This document shows positions 2,215-11,422 of a stretch of 22,989 nt of DNA, in pieces. The notes beneath the pieces were generated by a model that was given only the letters and a program-made list of their open reading frames with translations, did no database searches and was not told the DNA's origin. This stretch comes from a virus. Every line of letters begins with the position of its first letter. Position 1 is the first letter of the stretch. The position numbers were made by a program, and so were the translations under genes. The stretch spans positions 1 to 22,989 of IMG/VR virus record IMGVR_UViG_3300038696_000309. One strand, written 5' to 3'.

Positions 2215-2751
2215 ATGGAAGGAATGAGCGAGCGCGAGTATTCCGTCCATTCTGGCATCTCGCGCGGGGCGATCCAGAAAGCGCGCCGAGCCAGTCGGCT
2301 AGTGGTTTACAGCGATGGGTCGATCAATGCCGCTGCGTCTGATGTGCGCCGGGCTGAGATGACCGACCCCGACCAGCAGCGCCGCAGCACTGGCGGCGAT
2401 AGTGGGTTTTCCGGGCCTGCCGACAGCTCGTCCTATCTGAAAGCCCGCACTGCGCTGACGGTCTACCAAGCGCAGGAACGCCAACTGGCAATCCAGAAGA
2501 AGAAGGGCACGCTGGTCGATCGCGCCCGGGCGGAAACGCTTGTGTTTCGTTTGGCGCGGCAAGAGCGCGACACTTGGGTCACATGGCCATCTCGTGTCGC
2601 GGCTCTGATGGCGGCCGAAGTGGCCACGGAGGTAGAAAAGCAATCCGGCAAACCGGTGATCATCGAGGCCGCGATCCTGCAGAGGGTGCTGGAAACCCAT
2701 GTCAGAGCGCAACTCGAAGCCCTCGCCGATCTCCGGGTCAGCCTCGGATAG
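2215..2751 (+). CDS. phage terminase small subunit, Nu1-like
   Basis: This is a 178-residue protein at the head of the packaging operon, directly before a gpA-type large terminase. The N-terminus (EREYSVHSGISRGAIQKARR, about residues 5-24) looks like a winged-helix/HTH DNA-binding segment, followed by a short SDGSINAA strand as in Nu1/excisionase-like proteins. The middle (about residues 75-105, YQAQERQLAIQKKKGTLVDR) and the next stretch (FRLARQERDTWVTWPSRVA) match the helical part of lambda Nu1-type subunits. It would bind packaging sites on phage DNA and recruit the large subunit. Starts at 2215 and 2224 are both possible; 2224 has a purine-rich GGAAGG only about 1 nt upstream, so 2215 is kept. 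The 3' end overlaps the large terminase gene by 53 nt. Confidence 0.78.
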   Translation: MEGMSEREYSVHSGISRGAIQKARRASRLVVYSDGSINAAASDVRRAEMTDPDQQRRSTGGDSGFSGPADSSSYLKARTALTVYQAQERQLAIQKKKGTLVDRARAETLVFRLARQERDTWVTWPSRVAALMAAEVATEVEKQSGKPVIIEAAILQRVLETHVRAQLEALADLRVSLG

Positions 2752-4753
2752 TGACAACACGGCCACCGGCGATCTGACCGCAGACCTCGATCTTGGGTTT
2801 GACGGGGCCGAGGATATACTGCGGGCCTGGCGTCGCGGGATGCGGCCTGATCCAGACCTCACTGTGTCGGAATGGGCAGATGCGCACCGCAAACTGTCTT
2901 CTCGGGCCAGCGCTGAACCCGGACAATACCGCACCGCGCGCACACCGTACCTGCGCGAAATCATGGATGCGCTCTCGCCCCGCCACCCGGCGCAGCGCAT
3001 CAGCTTCATGAAAGCAGCACAGGTCGGCGCGACCGAGGCGGGAAACAACTGGATCGGCTTCGTGATCCACCACGCGCCAGGGCCGATGTTGGCGGTGCTG
3101 CCGACAGTGGAGATGGCTAAGCGCACCTCGCGCGGACGTCTGGACCCATTGATCGCCGAAAGCCCGGCCCTGCGCGAACGGGTGAACCCAGCCCGGTCGC
3201 GCGACGCGGGCAACTCAATGCTGTCGAAGGAATTCCCCGGCGGCATTCTGGTGTTGACCGGCGCGAACTCGGCGACCGGCCTGCGCTCCATGCCCGCGCG
3301 CTACATCTTTCTCGACGAGGTCGACGCCTATCCGGCCTCAGCCGACGAGGAAGGCGATCCGGTCACCTTGGCCGAGGCGCGCACCACCACCTTCTCGCAT
3401 CGGCGCAAGGTGTTCATGGTCTCGACGCCCACGATTCGGGGGTTGAGCCGGATCGAACGCGAGTTCGAGGCATCGGACCAGCGCCGCTATTTCGTGCCCT
3501 GCCCGCATTGCGGGGCGATGCAATGGCTGCAGTTTGAGAGGCTGCGCTGGGACAAAGGTCGGCCCGACACCGCGGCCTATCATTGCGAGGGTTGCGAGAA
3601 ACCCATCGCCGAGCACCACAAGACGCAGATGCTGGAGCGCGGGGAATGGCGGGCGACTGCCGTGTCAGCTGATCCGCACTCCATCGGCTTCCACCTCTCG
3701 GCGCTCTATTCGCCGCTGGGCTGGAAGAGTTGGCAGCAGATCGCGCGCGACTGGTTGGCGGCCCAAGGCTCAGAGGAGATGCTGCGCGCTGCGCGCAACA
3801 CCTTGCTGGGCGAGACATGGGTCGAAAGTGGCGACGCGCCGGAATGGCAGCGGCTGGCGGAGCGGCGCGAGGCCTACGCAGGCGCGCAGATTCCGGTGGG
3901 CGGGTTGTTCCTGACCGCTGGCGTGGATGTGCAGAAGGACCGGATCGAGATCGATGTCTGGGCCTGGGGCAGGGGACTGGAATCCTGGCTGGTCGATCAC
4001 ATCGTGCTCTCTGGTGGACCGGACGATCCGGCCTGCTGGGACAAGCTGACCTCGCTGCTCGGTCGGACGTGGGCCTGCGCCAATGGCGCGGTGATGGTGA
4101 TCGGCAAGCTGGCGATCGACACCGGATATGAAGCCCCGGCGGTTTACGCATGGGCCCGCAAACAAGGGTTTGACCAAGTCTCCCCGATCAAGGGCCTCGA
4201 AGGCTTCAACCGCGCCACGCCGGTATCGGGGCCGACCTTTGTCGATGCGACCATCGGCGGCAAACGTCTGCGCCGTGGAGCCCGGCTGTGGTCCGTGGCC
4301 ACCGCCACCTTCAAGACCGAAACCTATCGCTTTCTGCGGTTGGAACGCCCCAGCGATGAAGATCGTGCGCTGGGCGTGCTGGATGCCCCTGGCACCGTGC
4401 ATATGCCCGACTGGATCGACACTGAATGGCTCAAGCAGCTGGTGGCGGAACAACTGGTTACCGTGCGCAACAAGCGCGGCTATGCCAACCCCGAATGGCA
4501 AAAGATGCGCGAGCGCAACGAGGCACTGGACTGCCGCGTCTATTCCCGGGCAGCGGCTTGGATCCTTGGGGCGGATCGCTGGGACGAGGCGACATGGCGG
4601 CGGCTTGAAGAACAGGCCGGAGTTGAAACCCGCCCAGCACCTAAGCTGGCGACACCGACCGAACAGACAGCACCCGCTGCGCCCAAGGCTGGAACACCAA
4701 CCATGCCACGGCGCAAACGCCGGGCTTACACACCGAACTTCATGAGGGACTGA
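2699..4753 (+). CDS. phage terminase large subunit, gpA family
   Basis: This 684-residue ATPase/nuclease cuts concatemeric phage DNA and pumps it into the procapsid. The ATPase domain shows KAAQVGATE (residues 105-113) in the Walker A position, the loose form typical of the gpA family, and YIFLDEVDAYP (202-212, D206/E207) as Walker B. A zinc-ribbon-like pair CPHC (268-271) and CEGC (296-299) follows, common in GpA proteins. The nuclease part starts at GVDVQKDRIEID (D410), with the conserved TGYEAPAVYAWARKQGF stretch later. The C-terminus is basic (PRRKRR), perhaps for contact with the portal or DNA. The length fits the family (about 640-700 residues). The ATG at 2699 gives a 53-nt overlap with the small subunit, but no other start lies near enough to keep the conserved N-terminus. 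Confidence 0.97.
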   Translation: MSERNSKPSPISGSASDSDNTATGDLTADLDLGFDGAEDILRAWRRGMRPDPDLTVSEWADAHRKLSSRASAEPGQYRTARTPYLREIMDALSPRHPAQRISFMKAAQVGATEAGNNWIGFVIHHAPGPMLAVLPTVEMAKRTSRGRLDPLIAESPALRERVNPARSRDAGNSMLSKEFPGGILVLTGANSATGLRSMPARYIFLDEVDAYPASADEEGDPVTLAEARTTTFSHRRKVFMVSTPTIRGLSRIEREFEASDQRRYFVPCPHCGAMQWLQFERLRWDKGRPDTAAYHCEGCEKPIAEHHKTQMLERGEWRATAVSADPHSIGFHLSALYSPLGWKSWQQIARDWLAAQGSEEMLRAARNTLLGETWVESGDAPEWQRLAERREAYAGAQIPVGGLFLTAGVDVQKDRIEIDVWAWGRGLESWLVDHIVLSGGPDDPACWDKLTSLLGRTWACANGAVMVIGKLAIDTGYEAPAVYAWARKQGFDQVSPIKGLEGFNRATPVSGPTFVDATIGGKRLRRGARLWSVATATFKTETYRFLRLERPSDEDRALGVLDAPGTVHMPDWIDTEWLKQLVAEQLVTVRNKRGYANPEWQKMRERNEALDCRVYSRAAAWILGADRWDEATWRRLEEQAGVETRPAPKLATPTEQTAPAAPKAGTPTMPRRKRRAYTPNFMRD

Positions 4754-4973: not shown

Positions 4974-6470
4974 ATGGCATTTGAGGCCTTCCGACAGCGG
5001 ATCGGGTCGATCATCGGCGGGTTTGACGCAGCGCAGGCCCACCGGCGGCTGCGCGGGTTCCGCGCCAGCCGCGCGCATGTGAACACGCTGATCGCGGCCT
5101 CTGGCGACACGATCACCGCCCGCGCCCGCTGGCTGGTTCGGAACAACGGTTATGCGGCCAATGCCGTGGAGAGCTTCGCCAGCAATGTGGTCGGTGATGG
5201 CATCAAGCCGTCCAGTTCCATCAGGGATGCAGCGCTGAAGGAACAGCTGCAGGCACTCTGGCTCGCCTGGACAGACGATGCCGACGCCGAAGGCCTGACC
5301 GACTTCTACGGGTTGCAGCGCCGGGCGGCGCGCGAGGTGTTCCTGTCGGGCGAGGTCTTCATCCGCATCCGGCCGCGTCGCGCGGAAGATGGCCTGACCG
5401 TTCCCCTGCAACTGCAGATGCTGCCCGCTGAAATGCTGCCGCTCGACATGAACCGTACGCTGCCCGGCGCAGGGTTGATCCGGCAGGGCATCGAGTTCGA
5501 CGGGATCGGCCGCCGCGTTGCCTATCACTTCCTGCGCCGCCATCCCCGTGATTTGACCGATCCCGGCCTCGCGGGCGAAACCGTCCGTGTACCCGCCGCG
5601 GATGTGATCCATGTGCTGGACCCGGTCGAGGCCGGGCAGTTGCGCGGCGTGTCGCGGTTCGCCGCCGCCATCGTGAAACTGTTCACCCTAGACCTCTATG
5701 ATGACGCCGAGCTGGAACGAAAGAAAATCGCGGCGATGTTCGCGATGTTCATCACCTCACCCGCCCCCGAAAGCCCGCTGGAACCAACAGAGGAGGATCT
5801 GGAAGTTGAGCCCGGCCAGGTGGTACGGCTGGATCCCGGCGAGGACGTCTCGACGCCTGCCACACCGGACTCGGGTGGCACCTATGAGCTGTTCCAATAC
5901 CGGACCTTGTTGCAAATCGCAGCCGCGCTGGGCATCCCCTACGGATATCTGACGGGGGATACGGCGAAGGGCAACTTCTCCAACACCCGGATATCGCTGA
6001 TCGAATTCCGCCGTCGCATCTCTGCCTGGCAGCATGGCGTGTTGGTGTTCCAGCTCTGCCGCGCCGTTTGGGTGCGCTGGATGGATGTGGCCGTGCTGTC
6101 AGGCGCGCTGGACCTACCCGGTTACGATAGCCAGCGGCGGCAATATCAGGCCTGCGCCTGGCTGCCGACCAAGTGGGACTGGATCGATCCGATGAAGGAC
6201 GCCTCGGCAGAGATCCTGCAGATCGAGGCGGGTCTGAAATCGCGCACCCAAGCCCTGTCTGAGCGGGGATACGACGCTGAACAGGTCGACCGCGAGATTG
6301 CCGCCGAGCGTAAACGCGAATTGGCACTTGGCCTCGACTTCCGCCGCCCGGGATCGCCCGCAAAGGGTCCAGGCGAAGGGAGGGCGAAAGACGCGGATCA
6401 GGACAGCGGCAAAGACGACGAAGCCGACGAAACCGGTGATGAGAAATCTGATCCGAAGGAGGGCGCATGA
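4974..6470 (+). CDS. phage portal protein, lambda (gpB) family
   Basis: This 498-residue protein would form the ring at the packaging vertex through which DNA enters and to which the head-tail joiner binds. The N-terminal stretch (SGDTITARARWLVRNNGYA, then ESFASNVVGDGIKP) and the central LDPVEAGQLRGVSRFA and PYGYLTGDTAKGNFSN motifs are hallmarks of the lambda-type portal family. The C-terminus (from about residue 430) is charged and low in complexity (Glu/Lys/Asp/Gly-rich), as is common in the flexible tail of these portals. An AAGGG ribosome-binding site lies shortly before the ATG. The stop codon overlaps the next start as ATGA, so the portal and protease are translationally coupled. Confidence 0.97.
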   Translation: MAFEAFRQRIGSIIGGFDAAQAHRRLRGFRASRAHVNTLIAASGDTITARARWLVRNNGYAANAVESFASNVVGDGIKPSSSIRDAALKEQLQALWLAWTDDADAEGLTDFYGLQRRAAREVFLSGEVFIRIRPRRAEDGLTVPLQLQMLPAEMLPLDMNRTLPGAGLIRQGIEFDGIGRRVAYHFLRRHPRDLTDPGLAGETVRVPAADVIHVLDPVEAGQLRGVSRFAAAIVKLFTLDLYDDAELERKKIAAMFAMFITSPAPESPLEPTEEDLEVEPGQVVRLDPGEDVSTPATPDSGGTYELFQYRTLLQIAAALGIPYGYLTGDTAKGNFSNTRISLIEFRRRISAWQHGVLVFQLCRAVWVRWMDVAVLSGALDLPGYDSQRRQYQACAWLPTKWDWIDPMKDASAEILQIEAGLKSRTQALSERGYDAEQVDREIAAERKRELALGLDFRRPGSPAKGPGEGRAKDADQDSGKDDEADETGDEKSDPKEGA

Positions 6471-7810
6471 TGCACCACGCGAAAATCGCCCAGCGCGCCT
6501 TCAACACCCCATTGATGGTCGATCCCGCCAAAGCGCTGGCCTTCCTGTCCGGTCTGGGCCCACGCATTACCGGGCAAGAAATCACCTTTCAAGGTGTCGA
6601 TCTGCCCTCTGGGGATGTCGAACACGCTGCCGTCGCTGCCCGGCCCTCGCTGTTCGGTGATGACCTCGCCCAGCGCCATCAGCGCAACGGTAACCAACCC
6701 TTTGCCATCATCGACGGCATTGCCGTGATCGAAATCGCCGGAACGCTGGTGCATCGCGGCGCTTGGATCGGGCAATCCTCCGGCCTGACCTCATACGAAG
6801 GCATTGCGGCGCAACTGCAGGCGGCCCTGACCGACCCAGCCGTGCGCGGCATTGCCCTCGACATGGACAGCTTTGGGGGCGAGGTCGCCGGTGCCTTCGA
6901 TCTGGCAGACCGCATCCGGGCCGCCCGGGCGCAAAAGCCGGTGCAGGCCTTTGTCGCCGAACATGCGCTGTCTGCTGGCTATGTCCTGGCCTCCCAAGCC
7001 GACCGGATCATTTTGCCGCGCACCGGGGCGGTCGGAAGCATTGGTGTCGTGGCGCTCCACACCGACATGAGTGGGGCCCTCGACCAGAAGGGCATCGCCC
7101 TCACGCTGATCCATGCGGGCGTGCACAAGATCGACGCGAATCCTTATCAGCCGTTGCCCGAAGTCGTTCACGACCAGATGCAGCGCGAGCTGGAGGTGGT
7201 GCGCTTCCTCTTCGTGGAAACCGTCGCCGCAGGGCGCGGGGATCGGCTGACCCATGCAGCCGCGCTTGCTACAGAAGCCGCCGTGTTCCGCGGCGGGGAT
7301 GCAATTGCGGCGGGTCTCGCCGACGAACTGGCCGATCCTGTCACTGCCTTCCGCGCTTTCGCCGCCGCTCCCTACGGCACCACATCCTCCAGCAGAAAGG
7401 GTCCACAGATGACCACCGAACCCACCGACACTCCGAACCTGGCGCCGATTGCCGCCACTGATCCCGGGATGACCGCGGCAGCAGTCGTACCGACGACGCC
7501 CTCGTCGCCCCCCGCAGCCGCAATGCCGACGCCCGACACAACGACAATGACCGCCGACGCTGTGCGCGCCGAAGCGGCCGAGGTGGCGCAGGTCTGTGCG
7601 CAGGCCGCTCGGCTCGGGGTAACCATCGATGCGGCTGATGCCGTCACAAAAGGCCTCAAACCCGAAGCCCTGCGCGCCCGCGTCCTCGCAGACCTGGCCG
7701 CCCGTAGTGATGCAGCTGCGATTATCGCAACCGCCCCGGCCGCTGCGGCCGCGAAGGACAGCCCGATCATCGCTGCCGCAAAGAAGGCCGCGACCGACGC
7801 CAAGCGCTGA
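6467..7810 (+). CDS. S49 family head maturation protease with C-terminal scaffold-like region (lambda gpC type)
   Basis: This 447-residue protein starts at ATG 6467 (a second ATG follows at 6470), 9 nt after AAGGAGG, and overlaps the portal stop. Residues about 75-300 form the ClpP/SppA-like fold: DSFGGEVAGAFDLAD, then the nucleophile in HALSAGY (S169), and HKIDANPYQP carrying K221 where the Ser-Lys dyad lysine is expected. It would cleave scaffold, portal or capsid components during procapsid maturation. From about residue 310 the sequence becomes Ala/Pro/Thr-rich and then strongly helical, ending in KKAATDAKR. This two-part build (protease plus scaffold in one frame) is that of lambda gpC/Nu3. 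An internal start for the second part is described separately. Confidence 0.95.
   Translation: MMHHAKIAQRAFNTPLMVDPAKALAFLSGLGPRITGQEITFQGVDLPSGDVEHAAVAARPSLFGDDLAQRHQRNGNQPFAIIDGIAVIEIAGTLVHRGAWIGQSSGLTSYEGIAAQLQAALTDPAVRGIALDMDSFGGEVAGAFDLADRIRAARAQKPVQAFVAEHALSAGYVLASQADRIILPRTGAVGSIGVVALHTDMSGALDQKGIALTLIHAGVHKIDANPYQPLPEVVHDQMQRELEVVRFLFVETVAAGRGDRLTHAAALATEAAVFRGGDAIAAGLADELADPVTAFRAFAAAPYGTTSSSRKGPQMTTEPTDTPNLAPIAATDPGMTAAAVVPTTPSSPPAAAMPTPDTTTMTADAVRAEAAEVAQVCAQAARLGVTIDAADAVTKGLKPEALRARVLADLAARSDAAAIIATAPAAAAAKDSPIIAAAKKAATDAKR
7409..7810 (+). CDS. candidate nested scaffold protein from an internal start (Nu3-like)
   Basis: An ATG at 7409 lies in the protease frame (codon 315) and is preceded, 8 nt upstream, by AAAGGG, a reasonable ribosome-binding site. 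Translation from it would give a 133-residue protein: a Pro/Thr/Ala-rich N-terminus (MTTEPTDTPNLAPIA) followed by a helical region (AVRAEAAEVAQVCAQAARLG) and a Lys-rich end. In lambda the scaffold Nu3 is made in the same way, from an in-frame start inside gene C. No other scaffold gene is present between portal and capsid, which supports the idea. The start itself is an inference from the Shine-Dalgarno match, its position at the domain boundary and the lambda parallel. Confidence 0.5.
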   Translation: MTTEPTDTPNLAPIAATDPGMTAAAVVPTTPSSPPAAAMPTPDTTTMTADAVRAEAAEVAQVCAQAARLGVTIDAADAVTKGLKPEALRARVLADLAARSDAAAIIATAPAAAAAKDSPIIAAAKKAATDAKR

Positions 7811-7847: not shown

Positions 7848-8228
7848 ATGCCCGTCCTGACGGAACAGCCCAGCATGGGCGATGTCCTCAAATATGAGGT
7901 CAACCCTAACTACACTCGCGAGGTGATCACGCTGCTGATCGGCACCTCCTATCCGGCAGGCGCCGTCCTTGGCCGCATCACCGCCAGCGGCAAATACAGC
8001 CTCTCGCCTGCTACCGGTGCTGACGGATCCCAGACTGCCGTCGCTGTCCTGCTTTACCCGGTGAACACCACGCTGGCGGATGCGGTCGGCATTGTCGTGA
8101 CGCGCGGCCCCGCCATCGTGTCACGTGCAGGGCTCGCCTACGAGGCGACCGTCAACGACACCACCAAGATCAACGCCAAGATCACCCAGCTGGCCGCCGT
8201 GGGCATTATCGCCCGCGACGGCGTCTGA
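7848..8228 (+). CDS. head decoration protein, lambda gpD family
   Basis: This 126-residue protein sits directly upstream of the major capsid gene, as gpD does in lambda (110 residues). The core (EVITLLIGTSYPAGAVLGRIT, then SGKYSLSPATGADGSQTAVAVL) and the following AGLAYE..VND segments match the gpD-type family. Trimers of this protein cap the three-fold sites of the expanded head and stabilise it against internal DNA pressure. An ATGGAG sequence about 8 nt upstream of the ATG supplies the ribosome-binding site (GGAG). It belongs to the same rightward operon and is separated from the protease stop by 37 nt. Confidence 0.95.
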   Translation: MPVLTEQPSMGDVLKYEVNPNYTREVITLLIGTSYPAGAVLGRITASGKYSLSPATGADGSQTAVAVLLYPVNTTLADAVGIVVTRGPAIVSRAGLAYEATVNDTTKINAKITQLAAVGIIARDGV

Positions 8229-8253: not shown

Positions 8254-9276
8254 ATGACCCTCGTTCGCAATCCCTTTGACGCTGGCGGCTATTCGCTGGC
8301 CGAGATGACGCAGGCCATCAACATCCTGCCCAACCTCTACACCCGCCTCGGCCAGATCGGGCTCTTCCGTTTCGAGGGCGTCACCCAGCGATCGGTGATC
8401 ATCGAGCAATATGAGGGTGTCCTGAACCTGCTGCCCTCTGTGCCCCTTGGTGGCCCCGCCACCGTCGGCACACGCGAAGGGCGCTCGATGCGCAGCTTCG
8501 CTCTCCCGTGGATCCCGCATGATGATGTCATCCTGCCGGGCGACATTCAGGGCCAGCCCGCGCTGGGCGTCTTCGATGGTGCCGACCCGCTGGTCGAGGT
8601 GATGAACCGCAAGCTGCAGCTGATGCGCCGCAAGCATGCCCAGACCCGCGAATACATGGAGATGAATGCCCTACGCGGCATCGTGAAGGACGGCGCGGGT
8701 ACCACGCTCTACAACTACTTCACCGAATTCGGGCTGGCGCAAATCTCGGTAGACTTCCTGCTCGGCACCGCGGGCACCAATGTGCAGGGCAAAGTTCGTG
8801 AGGTCTTGCGCGCCATCGAGGACAACCTGTTGGGCGAGGCCATGTCTTCGGTCCATGCGCTGGTCAGTCGGGAATTCTTCGACAAGCTGATCGTGCATCC
8901 CAAGACCGAGGAAGCCTACAAGTTCTACGCGGCAACTGGTGCCCAGCCGCTGCGCGAGGATATGCGCCGCAACTTCCCCTTCGCGGGCATCGTGTTCGAG
9001 GAATATTCGGGCACCGTCACGCTTTCCACCAAGGCCAGCGAACGCCTTGTCCCTGCCAGCGAAGGGATCGCCTTTCCCCTCGGCACCATGGACACCTTCA
9101 CCACCTATGGCGGTCCGGCCAACCTGCTTGAGGCGGCCAACACCATGGGCCTGCCGCTCTACGCCCGCCAGCATCTCGACGAGAAAGGCCGCTGGATCGA
9201 CCTAATGACCGAAGCCTCGATCCTGCCGGTCAACAAGCGGCCACGCATCGCGATCCGCTTGCAGACCTCGAACTGA
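8254..9276 (+). CDS. major capsid protein, lambda gpE family
   Basis: This 340-residue protein is the same length class as lambda gpE (341). The ATG at 8254 is preceded by CCGGAG; the frame is open further upstream to an ATG at 8125, but that part overlaps the decoration gene in another frame and is not coding. Recognisable family stretches are the N-terminal MTQAINILPNLYTRLGQIG, the RSMRSFALPWIPHDD block (about residues 74-90), QTREYMEMNALRGIVKDG, and the C-terminal FTTYGGPANLLEAANT..GLPLYAR. It would form the icosahedral shell together with the decoration protein. The family assignment is secure. Confidence 0.97.
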   Translation: MTLVRNPFDAGGYSLAEMTQAINILPNLYTRLGQIGLFRFEGVTQRSVIIEQYEGVLNLLPSVPLGGPATVGTREGRSMRSFALPWIPHDDVILPGDIQGQPALGVFDGADPLVEVMNRKLQLMRRKHAQTREYMEMNALRGIVKDGAGTTLYNYFTEFGLAQISVDFLLGTAGTNVQGKVREVLRAIEDNLLGEAMSSVHALVSREFFDKLIVHPKTEEAYKFYAATGAQPLREDMRRNFPFAGIVFEEYSGTVTLSTKASERLVPASEGIAFPLGTMDTFTTYGGPANLLEAANTMGLPLYARQHLDEKGRWIDLMTEASILPVNKRPRIAIRLQTSN

Positions 9277-10331: not shown

Positions 10332-11033
10332 ATGAACCATCAGAAACCCATGCACGAGTACGTTGGGGTCGGCCTCTATTCATTGGCCGATGCCGCACAG
10401 CTCCTGAAGGCACCTCCACGGAGTATCCGGCGGTGGATGGATGGCTATGACTACAAGCAAAAAGAGAATATTCACCATGTTGCCCCACTCTGGGTCCCCG
10501 ACATTCCAAAAATTGACGACCAGATTGAGCTGAGCTTCCGAGACCTGATTGAACTTCGGTTTGTCAGGGCATTCTTGGAAAAGGGTATTGGGCTAAAGGC
10601 GGTACGAAACTGCCTCGAATACGCTCGGCAATGCATGCACACAGACCGGCCATTTTCGTCTGGTCGTTTCCGGACCGATGGGCGGACGATATTCCTTGAG
10701 AGTCTTGAAGCTGCTGCTGAACCCAAGCTGCTCGATCTCAAAGAAAAACAGTATGTCTTCAAACAAGTCGTGGAGCAGAGTTTCAAGGACTTAGATCTGG
10801 AGGGCGACATCGTTACCAGATGGCGTCCTTACCGTGGAAAAGACAGTATTGTTGTCGATCCTTTGCGGTCATTTGGCCAGCCTCTCGCTTCTAAGTCAGG
10901 CGTACCAACAATCGTTCTGGCAGAGGCAGTGAAGGCCGAAGGCTCATTGGCCCGAGTTGCGGCGATGTATGAAGTCGAAAAATCTGTCGTTCAGGACGCT
11001 CTGAAATTTCACCAGGAGCTTATAGCCGCTTGA
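10332..11033 (+). CDS. antitoxin, HTH plus DUF433 domain (VapB45-like)
   Basis: This is a 233-residue protein. The N-terminal part (GLYSLADAAQLLKAPPRSIRRWMDGY, about residues 13-39) reads as a MerR-like helix-turn-helix. A middle region follows with SFRDLIELRFVRAFLEKGIGLKAVR, and the C-terminus (GVPTIVLAEAVKAEGSLARVAAMYEVEKSVVQDALKFH) is a DUF433-type domain. This layout is that of VapB45-like antitoxins, which bind their operator DNA and neutralise a PIN-like toxin encoded next to them. The toxin gene starts inside this stop codon. Compared with both flanks, the gene is visibly poorer in GC and uses more A/T-ending codons, a sign of separate origin. No clear Shine-Dalgarno sequence precedes ATG 10332 or the in-frame ATG 10350, so the exact start is uncertain. 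Confidence 0.82.
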   Translation: MNHQKPMHEYVGVGLYSLADAAQLLKAPPRSIRRWMDGYDYKQKENIHHVAPLWVPDIPKIDDQIELSFRDLIELRFVRAFLEKGIGLKAVRNCLEYARQCMHTDRPFSSGRFRTDGRTIFLESLEAAAEPKLLDLKEKQYVFKQVVEQSFKDLDLEGDIVTRWRPYRGKDSIVVDPLRSFGQPLASKSGVPTIVLAEAVKAEGSLARVAAMYEVEKSVVQDALKFHQELIAA

Positions 11034-11422
11034 AGGTGATGGTTGATGAAAATCTGCCCCCAGCTATGGCGAAGGCACTTGCAGCACTATTCGCCGGAAA
11101 ACACGAAATCATTCACTTGAGGCAGAAATTTGGAGCCTCGGTCACGGATACAGAGTGGATCGGAGCACTAAACTTAGAGGGTCACTGGGTCATTATTTCC
11201 GGTGATCGGCGGATATCGAAGAACAAGGCCGAGCAACAAGCCTTCAAAAGCTCGAGGCTGGTAGGATTCTTCCTCGCGCCGGGCCTTCAGAAGGCAAAAC
11301 TGACGAAGCAGATGGAACGCTTGATGGCCCTTTGGGAAACCATCGAAAAACAAGCTGAACTGGTCGGGGGCGGAGCAATGTTCGAGATCCCGATGAAGAG
11401 CAGTAAGCTCAATCAGATCTGA
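11030..11422 (+). CDS. toxin, DUF5615/PIN_10-type PIN-like ribonuclease (VapC45-like)
   Basis: This is a 130-residue protein if it starts at TTG 11030, which overlaps the antitoxin stop as TTGA; ATG 11039 would give 127 residues. AGGAG at 11014-11018 precedes the TTG by 11 nt, and the resulting MKVMVDENLPP beginning is the usual start of this family. Expected acidic residues are present: D6 and E7 in VDEN, D40 in SVTDTEWIG, and D59 in SGDRRISKN. Proteins of this class are metal-dependent PIN-fold RNases, toxic unless bound by the partner antitoxin; the RNA target here is unknown. All core motifs look intact, so the module is probably functional. It shares the lower GC of the antitoxin gene. 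No terminator is seen after it. Confidence 0.85.
   Translation: MKVMVDENLPPAMAKALAALFAGKHEIIHLRQKFGASVTDTEWIGALNLEGHWVIISGDRRISKNKAEQQAFKSSRLVGFFLAPGLQKAKLTKQMERLMALWETIEKQAELVGGGAMFEIPMKSSKLNQI

Follow-up and report, generated by a model that had tools for sequence, protein, structure and literature searches.

Scaffold proteins nested in frame within the gene of the capsid protease are a known kind of arrangement, with lambda C/Nu3 and the Mu-like phages as examples, and the reading of the gene analysed here as one more case is well supported. In phage Mu itself the protease and scaffold genes go by the names I and Z. For Mu and the Mu-like phages KS10 and PaMx73, published accounts describe a scaffold lying in frame inside the protease gene and equipped with its own Shine-Dalgarno (SD) sequence (PMC2628397, PMC4378225). 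Two further sources describe the MD8-like protease, scaffold and capsid as a single fusion protein whose capsid part is of the HK97 type (PMC8508860), and the HK97 capsid protein as carrying its own scaffold domain (PMC8508860, PMC10275583). Literature on nested scaffolds in Rhodobacterales, or on scaffold swapping at a nested start, was not found by a search that left most subscription journals outside its reach, so that absence from print is not shown.

The DNA analysed here (the window, 22,989 nucleotides of the viral record IMGVR_UViG_3300038696_000309, from a phage of Rhodobacterales type) carries a lambda-type head module with a GpA terminase gene (2699-4753). A lambda B-like portal gene (4974-6470, + strand; PF05136, portal_2, E = 2e-108) overlaps the start of the gene for a full-length, gpC-like S49 capsid protease with a C-terminal putative scaffold domain (6467-7810, +; 447 aa; PF01343, E = 2e-29; phrog_53, head maturation protease, E = 7.5e-108). 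The head decoration protein D (7848-8228, +; PF02924, E = 9.2e-36) and the major capsid protein E (8254-9276, +; PF03864, cap_E, E = 2e-105) follow; no HK97-type capsid protein (PF05065) was found after the protease, the capsid protein of the window being of the PF03864 type. The head module holds no separate scaffold gene, as the earlier note on this DNA had claimed, the list of ORFs of 60 aa or more containing, between these head genes, just overlapping ORFs in other frames. Residues 7-322 of the protease align with lambda C at 42% identity, and its top Foldseek matches are SppA structures (4kwb and 3rst, E about 1e-14). In an AlphaFold2 model (37 rows, mean pLDDT 74.7) the protease part (residues 1-300; 6467-7366, +) is folded up to residue 300, its first 60 residues being less certain. 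A structureless linker rich in Pro, Thr and Ala comes next (residues 301-358; 7367-7540, +; pLDDT below 50 at 307-358), and then the helices predicted for the putative scaffold (residues 363-446; 7553-7804, +) at 363-382, 389-394, 399-414 and 433-446. A disordered stretch from residue 301 to about 360 precedes a mainly helical domain in this model, which was made for the window only.

Other genes of the window also deserve mention. Upstream of the terminase genes lies a gene for an NYN-domain protein (466-1146, +; PF01936, E = 4.5e-27). Inside the head-tail module, after a DUF6441 gene, a MerR/DUF433-like helix-turn-helix (HTH) protein with weak Pfam matches is followed by a PIN_10 protein (PF18478, E = 1.5e-29), a pair (10332-11422, +) that resembles a toxin-antitoxin system and for which PADLOC returned no match in the window.

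The linker contains an in-frame ATG (7409-7411, +; codon 315 of the ORF 6467-7810), 7 nt downstream of the internal SD sequence AGAAAGGG (7394-7401, +), in which AAAGGG occupies 7396-7401. The earlier note had placed this ATG at proper distance behind AAAGGG and had predicted a nested product of 133 residues. Both statements are borne out: the coordinates are correct, the ORF 7409-7810 (+) comprises 133 codons and is co-terminal with the protease, and the observation itself is confirmed as real. Its further claim that the start lies exactly at the end of the protease fold needs correcting, for the fold stops near residue 300 and the ATG comes some 15 codons later, but the described passage from a Pro/Thr-rich to a helical region stands, the start being situated in the predicted disordered Pro/Thr/Ala-rich linker ahead of the helices at 363-446. 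Among the 8 in-frame ATGs scored in the gene, 7409 has the strongest SD pairing with either the E. coli or the alphaproteobacterial 16S tail, and GGAGG is absent from its SD. Taken alone, the SD of the window does not go beyond chance in synonymous shuffles (p = 0.50 with the E. coli anti-SD, 0.086 with the alphaproteobacterial tail).

It is conservation, not the motif alone, that puts the site far beyond chance. Relatives were gathered with residues 1-298 or the whole phrog_53 profile as queries, without targeting the SD motif, giving a clade of 62 loci whose protease domains share 74% identity or more; with the window counted in, they comprise 43 distinct sequences. Met315 is kept in all 43, and codons 308-311 (7388-7399, +), which overlap the SD, rank lowest in synonymous diversity among the 433 four-codon windows of the gene (0.043, the gene as a whole averaging 0.407). 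The codons for Arg310 and Lys311 never vary where the residue itself is retained. Conservation of the start and of the ribosome-binding site among close relatives, which had been put forward as a check, is thus what was found: the ATG is invariant and the SD codons are the most synonymously constrained of the gene. A first set of relatives likewise had the ATG in 67 of 67 distinct sequences, but it was biased because the peptide pattern used to collect it included KGPQMTTE, and the argument does not rest on it. Other stretches of low synonymous diversity in the same gene (0.12-0.18) are found at codons 212-241 and 292-304, in four-codon windows starting at 212, 219, 235-238, 292 and 297.

The internal SD also fits the 16S rRNA of alphaproteobacteria. 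A 16S gene was found in one of seven genomes searched, that of Roseovarius gaetbuli, the carrier of the relative L088 (L numbers denote loci), and its 3' end reads GGATCACCTCCTTTCT. Further relatives lie in Palleronia (L085) and Tabrizicola (L091). The motif AGAAAGG of the window SD is complementary to CCTTTCT in this tail, and the pairing energy of the window SD is -9.2 with the Roseovarius gaetbuli tail versus -4.5 with that of E. coli. The window's own host presumably has a 16S tail of the CCTTTCT type.

Distant homologues point to the same site. Fused loci were defined by a tail of at least 80 residues (195 loci after L191 was dropped) and represented by 42 sequences below 80% protease-domain identity or 31 below 70%. 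The strongest SD of all in-frame ATGs falls within the 75-codon linker in 35 of the 42, where 10.7 would be expected, and at another in-frame ATG outside the linker in the other 7. At the stricter threshold, where 7.3 of the 31 would be expected, the linker holds it in 28 with the E. coli tail and in 26 with the alphaproteobacterial tail, and none of 200,000 simulations reached the observed counts. This rank test and the synonymous controls are preferred to a comparison of the best ATG of the linker with other ATGs (p = 3e-26), which its selection step biases toward the linker. When synonymous codons are resampled with the protein held fixed, the combined p over the 31 representatives is 1e-3 (E. 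coli tail) or 9e-7 (alphaproteobacterial tail), with just 4 or 8 of them, respectively, individually below 0.05. Around the start the mRNA folds less stably than along the gene in general (-16.6 versus -27.2 kcal/mol over the 42 representatives), a signal that is positive in 35 of 42 against synonymous resampling (p = 1e-4) and marginal against mononucleotide shuffles (26 of 42 positive, p = 0.03). The picked starts of the 42 lie 19-52 codons past residue 288, and the nested products measure 96-165 residues in 39 representatives and 200, 312 and 456 in the other three. The unusually long parts after the picked start in L102 and L158 (312 and 456 residues) are perhaps fusions with further domains.

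Two described phages serve as controls. In phage 21 the independently picked start is exactly the annotated scaffold start, and in lambda the pick is Met309 with AGGAGG, giving a product of 131 aa that matches phrog_8399 ('head scaffolding protein') end to end. The site of the window coincides with this SD-bearing Met309 (CAGGAGGGCGAATG), in agreement with the earlier comparison to Nu3. The annotated 201-aa start of nu3 in the lambda record J02459 (L001, 1885-2490), at codon 239, is without an SD; the SD-bearing start is codon 309. In an unconstrained alignment (A1) Met occupies one column in 33 of 40 rows, and such counts over distant homologues are alignment-dependent because the window and three close rows use another column (4 of 40).

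We consider it likely, with a probability of roughly 0.88, that the window gene makes two co-terminal proteins, a protease with a scaffold tail and a free 133-residue scaffold starting at 7409. Translation from 6467 would yield an SppA-like serine protease with a C-terminal scaffold domain in few copies, and ribosomes binding directly at AGAAAGGG would initiate at ATG 7409 and supply the free scaffold in excess. The latter could form an inner core for assembly of capsid protein E, into which the scaffold domain of the long form would carry the protease, and the protease would then remove the scaffold. Sequence comparison shows the anatomy, the conservation, the selection on SD codons and start, the weak local mRNA structure, the equivalence with lambda and phage 21 and the lambda-type separate genes described below; we infer actual initiation at 7409, stoichiometry, protease recruitment, scaffold removal and the role in assembly. 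The label 'scaffold' is given because of position, architecture and helical fold. The earlier proposal of a nested scaffold is supported by the conserved start, by the equivalence with lambda and phage 21 and by the separate genes that some D/E-type relatives have at this point, with the qualification that sequence homology to lambda-type scaffolds is undetected.

Scaffold domains behind the nested start are of more than one kind. Forty aligned nested domains form a class A (the window and its Rhodobacterales relatives), a class B and a class C, the last with lambda, phage 21, Casjensviridae phages and others; a profile built from the other 38 domains recovers the left-out lambda and phage 21 at 7.9e-14 and 1.3e-21. 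An hhalign comparison joins classes A and B (E = 6.4e-6, probability 85%), with 5 of 11 and 6 of 10 members falling below the best shuffle. Built from nine members without L185, a class A profile reaches L185 at 2.5e-25 and other class B members weakly (best 2.2e-4, best shuffle 1.6e-3), so the link of A with B is modest and that with L185 firm. The locus L185 (2353-2805, +) looks like a chimera, in which a protease of the B clade carries a scaffold of class A, the type of the window (E = 2.5e-25). Between A and C no link emerged, since neither the class A profile (0 of 19 in C) nor the class C profile (0 of 10 in A) brought any member above shuffles, and the phrog search gave no match of the window scaffold domain to phrog_8399, the Nu3 family; a homology too distant for profiles could still exist. 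In 50,697 phage records the window scaffold domain has no match at E 0.1, and its class A relative L124 finds, at E 0.3, just three records, all of a single Acidithiobacillus phage. In phrog_4523 ('major head and protease protein') the segment that precedes the capsid part is matched by five of the seven class A/B members tested: the window (9.1e-5, residues 31-117 of the nested product), L124 (5.5e-7), L185 (5.2e-6), L187 (2.6e-5) and L173 (2.2e-4), with no match for L125 and L145. This match lends the scaffold role weak independent support.

The proteases follow other lines of descent than the domains behind them. In the protease tree the class A proteases of the window group with eight class C carriers and six separate-gene loci (SH-aLRT 89), and the class B carriers stand apart with L185 and three HK97-type loci (SH-aLRT 98). 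A single clade is rejected for all A and B carriers (p-AU 0.0005), for A and B plus the three HK97-type loci (0.002), for C plus the separate-gene loci (0.0007) and for A with L185 alone (0.0006), in quick trees with long rows left out, and with the second and the last of these groups named after the tree had been inspected. Scaffold and protease histories differ across the nested-start joint, because the protease trees reject the pairing groups as clades. The strongest SD nevertheless lies in the linker in every class: 9 of 10 members in A, 8 or 9 of 11 in B, and 17 or 16 of 19 in C. It seems, as far as the sequences tell, that the scaffold cassette was swapped while the nested start stayed, which suggests that the start also marks a joint for exchanged scaffold domains. 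The fuller proposal stands, in our judgement, at even odds: at least two scaffold classes, non-homologous by detection, would have been exchanged behind the same protease with SD and ATG kept, so that selection keeps the nested arrangement (free plus protease-borne scaffold) and not one particular scaffold, and the internal SD of Rhodobacterales would be tuned to the extended 16S tail of the host.

Some relatives have the two parts as separate genes. In L003 (Rhizobium phage PPF1, which L147 also represents, judging by match and length), L148-L150, L155 and L178, a separate gene encoding 154-198 residues lies 4-23 nt behind the protease stop, and a D-type gene comes next. The profile of the lambda-type nested class matches the separate genes of L155 (5.5e-10), L178 (2.1e-8), L150 (8.6e-4) and L148 (2.2e-3), with no clear match for those of L149 (0.18) and L003 (PPF1_06, 2.9); the scaffold class of the window was matched by none of them in profile comparison. 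PPF1_06 (L003, 3423-3968) is annotated as 'putative lytic murein transglycosylase', yet its place, after the protease and ahead of the decoration protein, is that of a scaffold gene. Among 24 loci with a short or broken-frame protease, 12 precede an HK97-type capsid gene (nine called through Pfam PF05065 and three through a profile built from those nine), eight have D or D plus E, and four have neither. One of the eight, L081 (3001-3309), is a close relative with an early stop inside the protease frame, either a disrupted copy or a sequencing error. The 196 fused loci, which are not independent and include some contigs twice, comprise 165 with E and D, 20 with D only, 1 with E only and 10 with neither, and within the sequence at hand none has an HK97-type capsid gene. 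From these counts, a scaffold tail or separate scaffold gene goes with D/E heads, and its absence goes with HK97-type capsid proteins. A testable rule follows: D/E-type heads carry the scaffold nested in the protease gene or right after it, and HK97-type loci with a short protease were seen with neither.

The nested reading has to be weighed against three others. Only the full-length protein might be made, its C-terminal domain scaffolding in cis and free scaffold arising by self-cleavage, as reportedly occurs with P2 gpO. Such a scheme accords with the in-frame fusion of protease and scaffold, and P2 and lambda are both described as having the two in a single gene (PMC8508860). Cleavage, however, has no need of an ATG or an SD, yet Met315 is invariant, the synonymous sites of the SD are the most constrained and 35 of 42 representatives have their strongest SD in the linker; where a stop divides the two parts in a relative, the second gene is provided with a purine-rich site and an ATG. 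We regard self-cleavage as the sole source of free scaffold as improbable. A different reading of the same conserved codons, and one with very little to be said for it, is that they serve frameshifting and not initiation: A AAG GGT (7396-7402, zero frame) fits the -1 slippery pattern X XXY YYZ, AAAGGG keeps that frame in 39 of 43 clade members, and slippage would produce a tail-less protease. The -1-frame stop is scattered, however, from 4 to 277 codons beyond the ATG in the 43 sequences, frameshifting has no need of a conserved ATG, and the heptamer is missing in relatives in which SD and ATG are kept, for example AGAAAGGATCCC in L092, AGAGAGGG in L137 and CAGGAGGG in lambda. A programmed -1 frameshift was rejected, as no conserved -1-frame product was found and the stop position is not conserved.

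The nested product may also be made and serve as something other than a scaffold, for instance another head chaperone such as one for the portal. The domain of the window is without detectable homology to lambda-type scaffolds and unmatched in the phage records, as this account would allow, but its position, size and nested start are those of lambda-type scaffolds, it is predicted to be helical, and the head module has no other candidate scaffold gene. Class A and B members match the pre-capsid segment of phrog_4523 (5.5e-7 to 2.2e-4, five of seven tested), and the capsid gene of the window is of the E type, not the HK97 type. A chaperone of this kind is unlikely, somewhat more so than self-cleavage and less so than frameshifting. 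A protease with a scaffold tail accompanied by a free scaffold from 7409 is the reading we retain. With it, the nested arrangement of lambda C/Nu3 extends to prophages of Rhodobacterales and of other Pseudomonadota. Annotation readily overlooks the nested gene: of 11 fused phage records viewed for their annotation, 8 do not list it. If the start doubles as a swap joint, as the disagreement of scaffold class with protease tree suggests, this would bear on changes of head size and of assembly partner.

Several described systems can be set beside the locus. The short proteases that precede HK97-type capsid genes belong to the S49 family of the window protease, but they are without a tail, and in HK97 the scaffold (the delta domain) is part of the capsid protein (PMC8508860, PMC10275583). 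The MD8-like fusion of protease, scaffold and capsid shares the segment of phrog_4523 just before the capsid part, to which class A and B domains match. MD8 gp5 covers positions 202-644 of that family; the link is weak because the class profiles do not match gp5 convincingly (A best 0.059 for the whole protein, with the best shuffles weaker; B and C not above shuffles). The Mu-like phages have a Mu-like head module, unlike the window, and their likeness is drawn from descriptions, not from sequence. Phage 21 has a nested scaffold for which a separate ribosome-binding site is annotated, just where the independent pick falls, but this scaffold is longer (200 aa) and lambda-type. Lambda C/Nu3 is similar in having an S49 protease homologue placed between the portal and D/E genes, an SD-preceded ATG in the linker and a product of 131 residues versus 133 in the window; it has a strong AGGAGG SD, whereas that of the window fits the extended alphaproteobacterial 16S tail, and the two scaffold domains are without detectable homology. 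The window differs from the known cases, then, in the class of its scaffold and in having an SD that suits the 16S tail of alphaproteobacteria.
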